Origin: Bacteroidota bacterium
Lineage (GTDB): Bacteria > Bacteroidota > Bacteroidia > 2-12-FULL-35-15
Length of the DNA: 64,000 bases
Direction of reading: 5' to 3'
Assembly: GCA_025963725.1 (NCBI GenBank)
Contig: JAOQAE010000003.1
Coordinates: 186,001-250,000 of the forward strand
Shown piece by piece: positions 540 to 23,357 of this stretch (its first letter is position 1; the number at the start of each line of letters is the position of its first letter). Made by a program: the position numbers and the translations under genes. The notes under the pieces were generated by a model. It was not told the DNA's origin. It saw only the letters and a program-made list of their open reading frames with translations, and did not search any database.

Positions 540-1292
540 TTATTTGGCTGCCTTGTTAGCCGCTACAATGTACTGTTCCAGGGCCATGGTCATGGAAGGC
601 GCCTTAGGGTTGGGCGCATGGATATCGAGGCGCAGGCCGGCTTCTTTTACCGCCTCTGCAGTGGTAGGCCCGAAGCAGGCAATGCGTGTTTTATTCTGCT
701 TGAATTTAGGAAAGTTCTTGAAGAGGGAGCGGATCCCGGCCGGACTGAAAAACACCAGGATATCGTAGTTTACATTGGCAAGGTCGCTGAGGTCGCTCGC
801 TACGGTGCGGAACATTACGGCCTTGGAATATTTGATCTTCTGCTCATCCAGCTTTTCCGCCATCTCTTCCTTAGCGATATCGGAGCAGGGCAGAAGGAAA
901 TTTTCCTGCTTGTGCTTTTTTACAACTTCCATAAGGTCGACAATGGTTTGCTTTCCGTGGAAGATCTTGCGTTTGCGGTACAGTACGTATTTCTGGAGAT
1001 AATAAGCGGTGGATTCTGAAACACAGAAATATTTCATTGTTTCGGGAACTGCGAGGCGCATTTCCTGGCACATGCGAAAATAGTGATCGACGGCATTGCG
1101 GCTGGTCATGATCACTGCGGTGTGATCGAGGATGTTTACTTTATCTTTTCGGAAATCCTGTGCGGGCACGCCTTCCACGTGTATAAAAGGACGAAAATCG
1201 ATCTTTACGTTGCATTTCTTTGCAAGATCGAAGTATGGGGATTTGTCTCCCTCCGGCTTAGGCTGACTAACGAGTAAAGTTTTTACTTTCAA
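540..1292 (-). CDS. hemD: Uroporphyrinogen-III synthase
   Basis: Closes and inverts ring D of hydroxymethylbilane to give uroporphyrinogen III in heme and siroheme synthesis; cytoplasmic. The 250-residue length fits the two-domain HemD fold. Family features include the early RPFIHVEGV stretch, TSRNAVDHYF (about residues 62-71), and a late LVFFSPAGIRSLF and ACFGPTTAEAVKEAGL (about 204-222), the part of the family where sequence is best conserved. HemD is poorly conserved overall, so these motifs carry the call. It follows the DUF4271 gene with a 53-base gap on the same strand, a pairing seen in many Bacteroidota, and may be co-transcribed from the promoter at 2130. Confidence 0.93.
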   Translation of the reverse strand: MKVKTLLVSQPKPEGDKSPYFDLAKKCNVKIDFRPFIHVEGVPAQDFRKDKVNILDHTAVIMTSRNAVDHYFRMCQEMRLAVPETMKYFCVSESTAYYLQKYVLYRKRKIFHGKQTIVDLMEVVKKHKQENFLLPCSDIAKEEMAEKLDEQKIKYSKAVMFRTVASDLSDLANVNYDILVFFSPAGIRSLFKNFPKFKQNKTRIACFGPTTAEAVKEAGLRLDIHAPNPKAPSMTMALEQYIVAANKAAK

Positions 1293-4406: not shown

Positions 4407-4841
4407 TTACTTTTTACCAAAATCCTTTTGCGTTGCCGGATTTCCGTTCTCATCCCAGAACACCCATTTCCCGCTTTCGAGATCCTGCGTGTAATAGCCT
4501 TCGTAGCGCTTCTTCTCGTTCTCATACCAGGTGGTGGTCTTGCCATCCTTCTTCCCGTCCTTAAAGGTGGTTTCGCTCCAGGGGGCGCCATTCTCGTAAT
4601 AGCTCTTCCAGAGCCCCTCGCGCTTACCATCTTTCATTATCCCGCGCATCTTGATCACGCCGTTGGTATAGTACTGGATGTACTCGCCGTTGCTGATCAC
4701 GGAATCTTTTTTATCCTTAGCAGGCATGTTCGAAGTTAACGTATCGCGGTGCACTGTGCCCGCATCCGCAGCCTGTCCGTTGTTTTCCTTGCAGGCAAGC
4801 AGGCAGCAGGAGAGCAGGATAAACATTGCTATTCTTCTCAT
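4407..4841 (-). CDS. MORN-repeat (YwqK-like) lipoprotein
   Basis: A 144-residue protein with a lipoprotein signal (FILLSCCLLACKEN, lipobox LLAC near residue 17). After a short linker come repeated GxYxxYYxNGxxKxxG units: GEYIQYYTNGVIKMRG, then KREGLWKSYYENGAPW, KKDGKTTTWYENEKKRYEG and ESGKWVFWDENGN. These are the MORN-like repeats of the family annotated as YwqK antitoxin, though nothing here shows antitoxin activity. It starts two bases after the stop of the polyprenyl synthase gene on the same strand, so the two are probably co-transcribed. Likely an envelope-attached binding protein; function unknown. Confidence 0.85.
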   Translation of the reverse strand: MRRIAMFILLSCCLLACKENNGQAADAGTVHRDTLTSNMPAKDKKDSVISNGEYIQYYTNGVIKMRGIMKDGKREGLWKSYYENGAPWSETTFKDGKKDGKTTTWYENEKKRYEGYYTQDLESGKWVFWDENGNPATQKDFGKK

Positions 4842-22302: not shown

Positions 22303-22313
22303 TCGTTATTATT

Positions 22314-23210
22314 TTAGTGTGTCCATATTTCCTCTTCTCTCCATTGAGCGTGAAAGCCCATATGCTGGATATTGACAGTAGGATATTCTGAGAATAAAGT
22401 GAGTAGGCGTTCTTTAAATTTGGATTTTGGACTGATGTTGTTTATCAGGAATAACATGCAGGACAAAACTCCGTAAAGCCTCTTGTCAGTTTCAGCATCA
22501 ATAAAGGTTAAAAAGCGATTATTTTTTCTTGTAGGAATGGTAGGCTTTAATGGTATTCTTCTATTCCACAGACGCGAATGGTGCGCAGAAGCATTTCTTA
22601 TAAAATTTATACTTTTCAGCCACGATTGAAATAAGGGGACCACAACTTTATATTGTTGAGCTACCATTTTTTTTTCATCGTTGTCCTTTAAATTTTCGTA
22701 GAGGCTTGCGAGCCGTCCAAAGGTAAGAGTTTCCATTACCATCCAGGAGGGAGGCGATTTTGGATCACTGTATTTTGAATTATAGCTTCTTATAAAAGTT
22801 TCGCTTGCATCCGCACAATAAGATTGAACATTTGCTGTGAATTCGGAATGAAGCCTTTTATCATTAAACAAATCTGCGTTCAGATACCAGTGCGGGCCAT
22901 GCGCTAATGACATAATATTACACAAGGTCGCTCTTAACGAAACTTCTATCCTTTCTATATAATCCATTATTAATAAACGCAATTTTTTATCAAATAAATA
23001 ATGGTCGAGAATCAGTTCAAAGGAAACATCTTTTTTAAACGTATGTGAGCTATCCGTTTGAAAAGGATACATATAACCTGTCATACGATAATAACTGATA
23101 TGCTGAAGATATTTCAGACAGCGCGGTTTATCCTTTATTGACAATCCTCTTTTAATCAGTAACTCGTAATGATCTTCGGATGTTTTGGCAGGCTTTGTAA
23201 ATGCGGTCAT
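22314..23210 (-). CDS. Abi family protein (Abi_2, HEPN-type; AbiD/AbiF-like)
   Basis: Phage-defence family protein, 298 residues from the ATG at 23208-23210; an upstream frame start would place the T-run of the terminator within the coding region and is unlikely. Abi_2 marks: LIKRGLSIKDKPRCLKYLQH (about 18-37), the YYRMTGYMYPF block (40-50), DYIERIEVSLRATLC (83-97), GPHWYL (105-110) and the HEPN RNA-cleavage-type motif R-N-A-S-A-H (205-210, an Rx4H). The gene is visibly more AT-rich than its neighbours, suggesting transfer. Family proteins are thought to be RNases that halt growth; related AbiF proteins are held back by a small RNA. A promoter, hairpin and T-run lie immediately upstream (23214-23278). 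Confidence 0.88.
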   Translation of the reverse strand: MTAFTKPAKTSEDHYELLIKRGLSIKDKPRCLKYLQHISYYRMTGYMYPFQTDSSHTFKKDVSFELILDHYLFDKKLRLLIMDYIERIEVSLRATLCNIMSLAHGPHWYLNADLFNDKRLHSEFTANVQSYCADASETFIRSYNSKYSDPKSPPSWMVMETLTFGRLASLYENLKDNDEKKMVAQQYKVVVPLFQSWLKSINFIRNASAHHSRLWNRRIPLKPTIPTRKNNRFLTFIDAETDKRLYGVLSCMLFLINNISPKSKFKERLLTLFSEYPTVNIQHMGFHAQWREEEIWTH

Positions 23211-23213
23211 ATT

Positions 23214-23266
23214 AAAAAAAAGACCCTGCAAAGTGTGCTTGAATCAGAGGCATGCAGGGTTTGGTT
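23214..23266 (-). ncRNA. Candidate small RNA with terminator upstream of the Abi gene
   Basis: On the minus strand, after a TACTTTTG promoter box, the predicted transcript (start near 23266) holds an 8-bp stem ACCCTGCA / TGCAGGGT (23253-23260 with 23223-23230) around a 22-base loop, then eight T's (23214-23221) just three bases before the Abi ATG. A transcript of about 50-55 nt ending at the T-run would be separate from the Abi mRNA. This is the promoter-RNA-terminator-toxin order of RNA-antitoxin systems, but no RNA data exist here; a simple attenuator is the other reading. Confidence 0.6.
23223..23260 (-). terminator. Hairpin with T-run in the Abi leader
   Basis: Inverted repeat ACCCTGCA / TGCAGGGT followed on the minus strand by TCTTTTTTTT, a canonical intrinsic-terminator form, placed before rather than after a gene. 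Confidence 0.7.
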
Positions 23267-23270
23267 GATA

Positions 23271-23278
23271 CAAAAGTA
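23271..23278 (-). promoter_or_regulatory. Promoter -7 box for the Abi leader RNA
   Basis: Minus-strand TACTTTTG, exact to TAnnTTTG. Predicted start of transcription near 23265, a few bases before the hairpin. No clear -33 element. Confidence 0.6.
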
Positions 23279-23357
23279 ATAAATCTTGAACCTTTTTAAA
23301 ACATTTATTTACTATTTTATTATCAAAGTTTTCAAAAAAATTGTTGATAATTGACAA

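Follow-up and report, generated by a model that had tools for sequence, protein, structure and literature searches.

A predicted AbiF toxin-antitoxin unit of compact layout in a Bacteroidota bacterium, and solitary abiF RNAs in viruses and bacteria

Introduction

What does a short hairpin do when it stands directly ahead of the gene for a predicted abortive-infection ribonuclease, on the same strand and within a few bases of its start codon? It might be an antitoxin RNA that restrains the protein, a cis-acting attenuator of the gene, or the terminator of whatever lies upstream. We addressed this question for a locus in a Bacteroidota bacterium (assembly GCA_025963725.1), using a stretch of 64,000 nucleotides (contig JAOQAE010000003.1, positions 186,001 to 250,000) that we call the window. 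A preliminary description of this DNA had proposed an RNA antitoxin ahead of an Abi_2 protein, perhaps as a mobile defence unit. The features of the locus are as follows.

23271..23278, minus strand: TACTTTTG, predicted Bacteroidota-type -7 box (TAnnTTTG) of the RNA promoter (sequence; recurrence of the box in homologue leaders)
23214..23266, minus strand: predicted abiF-type small RNA (antitoxin) of about 53 nt (fold, Rfam and model R2; 5′ end inferred from the box)
23223..23260, minus strand: abiF hairpin with outer stem, inner UGC/GCA stem, CUCUGAUUCAA loop and CACUU bulge, doubling as terminator stem (fold, covariation)
23214..23221, minus strand: run of eight T's (terminator), 3 nt (AAT) short of the start codon (sequence)
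22314..23210, minus strand: abiF gene for a predicted Abi_2/AbiF HEPN ribonuclease of 298 aa, with its ATG at 23210 and a stop codon that ends at 22314 (Pfam, PADLOC, 8VZ6, fold)
22581..22598, minus strand: codons of RNASAH, the HEPN Rx4H motif at residues 205-210 (sequence; aligned to R210/H215 of PbAbiF)

A hairpin directly ahead of a predicted HEPN ribonuclease

TAnnTTTG is the promoter box of Bacteroidota. The box, the 8-bp hairpin and the eight T's ending three bases before the start codon are all present on the minus strand, as first described, and the small RNA, put at 50-55 nt in that account, comes to about 53 nt (23266 to 23214) if its 5′ end is placed by the box. RNAfold gives the hairpin 8 outer pairs (ACCCUGCA/UGCAGGGU), 3 inner pairs (UGC/GCA), a loop of 11 nt and a bulge of 5 nt in the 3′ arm, with 12 nt from the stem to the ATG of AbiF. 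The same hairpin is predicted in stretches of 56, 65 and 130 nt. Its fold is better than that of most shuffled sequences in the 56-nt stretch (z -2.55; 1 of 200 shuffles equally good) and the 65-nt stretch (z -2.30; 3 of 200), and not above shuffles in the 130-nt stretch, which includes the AT-rich promoter region (z only -1.08; 33 of 200 as good). We infer that this one hairpin acts in the window as antitoxin, as terminator and as a hindrance to ribosome loading.

A TTG start within the hairpin, preferred by the listing of open reading frames, was considered and rejected: in most homologues an ATG located after the U-run precedes the beginning of the protein match by 0-15 nt. A comparable annotation exists on a Bacteroides fragilis plasmid (L136, 1381): AbiF is annotated there from a start 120 nt ahead of the match, so that the abiF RNA at 1446-1492 falls within the annotated gene, likely a start-site error.

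The protein is a clear member of the Abi_2 family (PF07751; E 4.4e-57, 193.8 bits against a cut-off of 25.6, with positions 1-184 of the 184-position profile covered), and PADLOC names it AbiD (2.9e-74). Its sole relative in the PDB by sequence at E<=1 is 8VZ6 (phmmer, 2e-55), named as the structure of PbAbiF with its ncRNA (PMC12737573). Identity to PbAbiF is 34%, and R205 and H210 align on R210 and H215, the residues whose double mutant is reported inactive in the available part of PMC12373285. An AlphaFold2 model built from a five-sequence input (pLDDT 87.6) again has 8VZ6 as its one PDB match under E 0.001 (6.8e-20, TM 0.89/0.90), in agreement with a HEPN fold. The Abi_2 identity and the R205-N-A-S-A-H210 motif of the preliminary description are thereby borne out. 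The genome holds one Abi_2 match in total. Plasmids supply 424 records of relatives and phages 74, every one below 60% identity. Four genomes of the genus (G018, G010, G008 and G029) encode Abi_2-like proteins of 210-227 aa (L004-L007), without an abiF RNA match.

The hairpin as an abiF-type RNA

The Rfam family abiF (RF03085) is the top match among 4227 families at the right place and strand, at 26.3 bits and E 0.021 in 701 bases. This is short of the gathering score (37 bits), and a search of the whole window at gathering scores returned no match. The window RNA thus escapes an Rfam search at the curated cut-off. The Rfam model is sparing among related loci too: with E<=1 it matched in 13 of 395 genomes of the phylum (4 above the cut-off) and gave five matches in 17 homologue loci, the window's genome and locus being absent from these.

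We therefore rely on two models of our own. R1 includes the window sequence. R2 was built from 23 AbiF-linked hairpins, leaving out the window and L013, L031 and L043, and four of its alignment rows are one base out of register. R2 finds the window hairpin (23260-23213) at 41.6 bits and E 9.4e-10, the next place in the window scoring 17.8 bits, which identifies it as an abiF-type homologue. Scanning the genome for such hairpins gave one strong match and seven others at E 0.05-0.6.

Conservation of the hairpin beside AbiF

Homologues were drawn from the genus (3 of 36 genomes, its own included), from the phylum (40 of the 395 genomes matched at E<=1e-20) and from four loci on GTDB contigs, yielding 48 leaders of at least 130 nt. 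The comparison of upstream regions for covarying stems, proposed earlier as a check, comes out in favour of the RNA: the abiF hairpin is present in 43 of the 48 leaders, in 35 distinct forms. A strict scan passes 41 of 48 leaders against 64 of 9600 shuffled ones; L010 and L050 fail it and carry a variant found by R1 (L010 in its seed, L050 outside the seed and scoring 40.8 bits). The leaders without the hairpin are L055, which lies in a rearranged context, and those of the most distant homologues (L052, L053, L054 and L057), which together form one clade. Eight of 38 distinct leaders have an exact TAnnTTTG 9-11 nt ahead of the hairpin; 300 rounds of shuffling gave a mean of 0.11 and a maximum of 1. 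Conversely, the 395 genomes contain 46 Abi_2 domains that are 400 nt or longer; 37 have an abiF RNA within 400 nt and nine do not, one of these being cut by a contig end.

RNAalifold recovers 9 of the 10 pairs unaided. Seven of the ten pairs are altered on both sides, with a covariation score of 0.449 against at most 0.123 for slid versions; since 25 of the 27 hairpins in this count were picked by a scan that demands pairing, the percentage of paired cells is inflated. The letters of loop and bulge are conserved among homologue hairpins. The loop class (GCCUCU or GCUUCC-like) tracks the protein tree, with 4 changes against a shuffled mean of 10.6 and 0 of 500 shuffles as low, as would be expected of partners that change together; the tree is a quick one, and near-copies favour such clustering.

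These observations bear on the possibility that the hairpin is a cis-acting attenuator of the AbiF gene only, without function in trans. Its stem, U-run and nearby ATG fit such a role, and the related RNA of Clostridioides difficile, RCd22, acts in cis as well. Conserved loop and bulge letters, however, are superfluous for a terminator, and an attenuator does not account for a loop class that follows the protein tree, for hairpins in viruses that lack the gene (see below), or for the action of RCd22 in trans. We judge the attenuator improbable.

Genomic surroundings

By Pfam, the upstream neighbour of the unit is a gene of the deoxyhypusine-synthase family, and the downstream neighbour a gene for DAHP synthase/chorismate mutase; its start codon is TTG, as it often is in other genomes of the genus. 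In 18 of the 22 genus genomes that have both genes on one contig, the gap between them is 14-277 bp, too close for AbiF. Wider gaps occur in G013, G026 and G019, at 1871, 836 and 632 bp. That of G013 contains a DUF3050 gene and also an ORF that no Pfam family matches, and that of G026 an ORF resembling the DUF3050 gene by sight. The interval (22303-23357 in the window; also L131 and L132) is a variable site between deoxyhypusine-synthase-like and DAHP-synthase genes, AbiF being only one of its contents.

The nearest AbiF unit, with a protein 78% identical, is also in G013, on a contig other than that of the flanking-gene pair. G013 and the window share DNA homology that begins at the promoter box and stops no more than 8 bases from the end of the gene. 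It would seem from this that the three parts, box, RNA and gene, move as one. Loss of the hairpin from all close homologues, named in advance as a finding against the RNA, is not what we see: this nearest relative keeps it, and the two 36-nt cores differ at two bases, which make up one compensatory U-A to C-G change. The earlier suggestion of a mobile unit is upheld in part, by the tight gap in 18 of 22 genomes and by the G013 unit on another contig; neither a mobile gene nor a target-site repeat was recognised among the ORFs inspected by reading.

That the hairpin is the ordinary terminator of the upstream deoxyhypusine-synthase-like gene, its nearness to AbiF accidental, is very hard to credit. 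Several relatives do have a plain terminator-like hairpin in the same gap, but relatives whose gap lacks AbiF do not show the abiF hairpin in it, the hairpin accompanies the AbiF unit on the unrelated G013 contig, and the counts for leaders against shuffles tell against accident. A chance hairpin is excluded by those counts and by the G013 comparison.

A proposed mode of action

Taken together, the window unit is very probably an AbiF RNA-protein toxin-antitoxin defence unit of type III-like kind. An RNA gene with its terminator directly upstream of the toxin gene, on the same strand, can be read from the sequence alone. The unit differs from classical type III systems of the ToxIN kind in having a single hairpin without tandem repeats and an Abi_2/HEPN toxin that is not of the ToxN type. 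The antitoxin reading of the preliminary description is thus supported by the Abi_2 identity, HEPN motif, promoter box, abiF-type RNA and terminator, and by analogy with published neutralisation in C. difficile. Its statement that related AbiF proteins are inhibited by a small RNA also holds, as far as the accessible text of PMC12373285 goes: the C. difficile abiF RNA neutralises AbiF, and an ncRNA is bound in the PbAbiF structure.

From the sequence and the example of RCd22, the unit's own promoter would yield mostly the hairpin RNA of about 53 nt, ending at its own terminator, while occasional read-through would produce AbiF mRNA. With the start codon 12 nt past the stem, the same hairpin may limit expression of the toxin. 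AbiF is likely a HEPN dimer with R205/H210 as its active site, the fold and residues being assigned by comparison and the dimer and activity presumed. The RNA would bind AbiF and block RNA cutting, binding and neutralisation being known from C. difficile. A phage that shuts down host transcription, or removes the short RNA, might then free the toxin and so stop growth. Phages might answer with solitary copies of the antitoxin RNA; such copies do occur, as set out next, and this role for them is conjectural.

abiF RNAs without AbiF in viruses

IMG/VR was searched with three motif patterns, which gave 46, 7 and at least 120 stretches, 80 of those for pattern P3 being listed and passed to R1. Among the matches listed, R1 finds 66 abiF RNAs at E<=1e-3 in 53 + 80 viral loci; AbiF follows within 2.2 kb downstream in four of the 66, and none is seen in the available sequence for 62 (10 nt of it at L230). 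Because the loci were picked by motif, these E-values are uncalibrated, and we therefore turned to the outer stem, where the patterns fix nothing but the last G's of P1 and P2. An outer stem of at least 5 pairs occurs in 34 of 42 (P2) and 6 of 7 (P1), against flank-swap means of 11.4 and 2.3 and maxima of 18 and 5, and, among the matches listed for P3, a short pattern with many chance matches, in 41 of 88 (mean 8.1, maximum 17). For 22 viral hairpins of one length, picked by eye for equal length and via R1, so that pairing is favoured, 8 of 10 pairs are altered on both sides, with 49 double changes, 98.6% of cells paired and a covariation score of 0.669 against at most 0.141 for slid versions.

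Abi_2 is absent from all 49 records searched whole, comprising 47 viral contigs, most of them fragments, and the complete genomes of Acj61 and CRP-143; the contigs represent 47 of the 57 viral loci with an orphan RNA. Of 42 loci scanned, eight have an abiF RNA no more than 20 nt away from a tRNA gene, L243 and L249 being near-copies; the match at L245 overlaps a predicted tmRNA. Three sets of viral contigs (L243/L249, L285/L303 and L300) carry tandem arrays of differing abiF RNA variants, which in L243, L249 and L300 immediately follow tRNA genes:

581-712, minus strand: array in L243
4411-4542, plus strand: array in L249
4332-4431, minus strand: array in L285
726-849, minus strand: array in L300

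Straboviridae and Autographiviridae are usually lytic. Each provides an example: in Acinetobacter phage Acj61 (Straboviridae; L387, 3001-3041) the RNA lies between p143 and p142, the same region holding tRNAs, vs and rI, and in Roseobacter phage CRP-143 (Autographiviridae; L388, 3001-3043) between the scaffolding and capsid genes. Both are unannotated and exceed the Rfam cut-off, at 58.0 and 50.8 bits. We rejected the idea that the Acj61 RNA is a copy of Acinetobacter plasmid AbiF RNAs, its loop differing from both plasmid RNAs examined. BLAST searches of INPHARED gave no match for the window hairpin; 17 records for a GCCUCU-type query, of which only Acj61 (two accessions) and CRP-143 fall below E 1e-6, the others lying at E 0.8-9; and 11 records, all at E 9, for a GCUUCC-type query.

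The closest viral counterpart to the window RNA is in a 75-kb contig (L305; IMGVR_UViG_3300003316_000244), where positions 4696-4731 (CCCTGCATGCCTCTGATTCAAGCACACTTTGCAGGG) match the window's 36-nt hairpin letter for letter, and the closest bacterial relative differs at two bases. This is the sole IMG/VR stretch matching the window hairpin with two free positions. It sits in a 108-nt intergenic space with different flanks; after it come C and eight T's, where the window has TC and eight T's. No Abi_2 match was found in the 75 kb, and one of six neighbouring proteins matches PHROGs, as a UvsX-like recombinase.

abiF RNAs without AbiF in bacteria

In the 395 phylum genomes, R1 finds 80 abiF RNAs in 57 genomes at E<=1e-3. 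An Abi_2 domain of at least 400 nt lies within 400 nt downstream of 37, a partial one follows six, and 37 have none. Among these orphans, L179 and L191 are cut off by the end of a contig, L182 and L190 each stand ahead of a complete AbiF as a second copy, L186, L212 and, weakly, L209 adjoin AbiF remnants, and L213 resembles a plain terminator. After these exclusions 29 remain, near-copies among them, with less than 1 kb of downstream sequence at L181, L184 and L210.

Seven loci with defence-like neighbours were checked, and ten proteins, picked as defence-looking, were sent to PADLOC:

L204: orphan abiF RNA shortly before DarT-DarG
L195: orphan abiF RNA shortly before IetA with an unmatched partner
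L201: orphan abiF RNA shortly before AbiLi-AbiLii
L192: orphan abiF RNA shortly before a type III methyltransferase
L205: orphan abiF RNA shortly before a NACHT/DUF4062 protein
L197: two orphan abiF RNAs before a type I restriction subunit (HsdR-like)
L208: SspE/GmrSD C-terminus upstream of the orphan abiF RNA

In the first six, AbiF is absent between the RNA and the defence gene. Copies of one leader (L192, L193, L194, L198, L200, L206 and L207) were considered as a mobile repeat, which was rejected in view of their partly decayed, operon-leader look. Four of these seven are followed, 46 or 54 nt on, by an ORF sharing its first residues with the L192 methyltransferase (634, 674, 258 and 251 aa); in two, such an ORF breaks off at 7 and 55 aa, and none was found after the leader of L198. 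Another solitary abiF RNA, with a loop near that of the window (L199; G144:C49:5525-5571), adjoins a gene named by sight as serine-recombinase-like.

What the orphan RNAs may mean

The solitary abiF RNAs are the part of this analysis that is new to us. It is a finely balanced question whether, in phages including usually lytic groups, they are RNA anti-defence devices that mimic the host antitoxin and silence AbiF. If so, tandem variants would cover several AbiF types, and siting in tRNA clusters would pair silencing with tRNA supply. The window unit would have a specific viral counterpart, since L305 carries its hairpin unchanged, and bacterial orphans before defence operons would give the island immunity against AbiF, or represent an attenuator module shared between defence systems.

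A serious contender, which we nonetheless do not favour, is that the orphans of phages and bacteria were left behind by AbiF genes now lost, or hitchhike in variable regions. Two or three of the 37 bacterial orphans do show AbiF remnants (L186, L212 and, weakly, L209), the Acj61 RNA is unlike the AbiF RNAs of the two Acinetobacter plasmids examined, and AbiF can sit within a type I restriction operon, so that the RNA before the HsdR-like gene (L197) may have survived from one. Against this reading stand viral stems that differ from one another and still pair (in rows chosen via R1), arrays made up of different variants, and 49 records searched whole, most of them fragments, in which Abi_2 was not found.

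In the published literature searched (partial texts, with preprints outside its scope), we found no proposal that phage abiF RNAs inhibit AbiF. The cyanophage S-CREM1 has an Rfam abiF match said, in the part of the source available, to be probably functional during infection, and the accessible text of a 2025 review calls the role of this sRNA unconfirmed (PMC12197685). An abiF RNA in phages without the toxin would give that sRNA a testable role, namely RNA-based escape from AbiF. Further, Cas13 is reported to descend from AbiF (PMC12373285 and PMC12737573, as available), and each well-resolved pair of RNA and AbiF would therefore help to show how an antitoxin RNA might become a guide.

Comparison with described systems

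On its sequence, the window unit is a known kind of system in compact layout, such systems having been described in C. difficile and for PbAbiF. In the accessible part of PMC12373285, the abiF RNA RCd22 neutralises AbiFCd by binding, in cis and in trans; it has two abiF motifs and a separate terminator, with a transcription start 168 nt before an ATG that has an RBS. AbiFCd-RCd22 resembles the unit predicted for the window in four ways: a promoter of its own, an abiF RNA that precedes the gene, transcription reading on into the toxin gene, and the Rx4H motif. Unlike RCd22, the window has a single hairpin as both motif and terminator, 12 nt from the ATG, and would represent a minimal design in which one hairpin is antitoxin, terminator and leader. 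A second terminator-like hairpin after the abiF hairpin, in 8 of 43 leaders, recalls the separate terminator of RCd22, whereas the window motif bears the U-run itself.

PbAbiF-AbiFr (8VZ6; Zilberzwige-Tal et al.) is homologous in protein over nearly the whole length, with catalytic residues aligned, and has, as described in PMC12373285 and PMC12737573, a cis-encoded short ncRNA with a single-stranded bulge whose nucleotides are reported to inhibit PbAbiF; the likeness of the RNAs is by description, and ncRNA binding is known for PbAbiF, while the window protein is 34% identical and known here from sequence. Rfam RF03085 agrees with the window RNA in fold, position and strand and in the GCCUCU that opens the loop, but the window RNA, at 26.3 bits, stays under the gathering score. 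Finally, the orphan abiF RNAs resemble the pseudo-ToxI of phage PhiTE (PMC3475682) and the Racr RNA anti-CRISPRs (PMC10651486), in which, according to the accessible parts of these papers, a virus carries a solitary copy of the RNA part of a host system. Those belong to other RNA and protein families and have been shown experimentally, whereas the phage abiF orphans are known as sequences.
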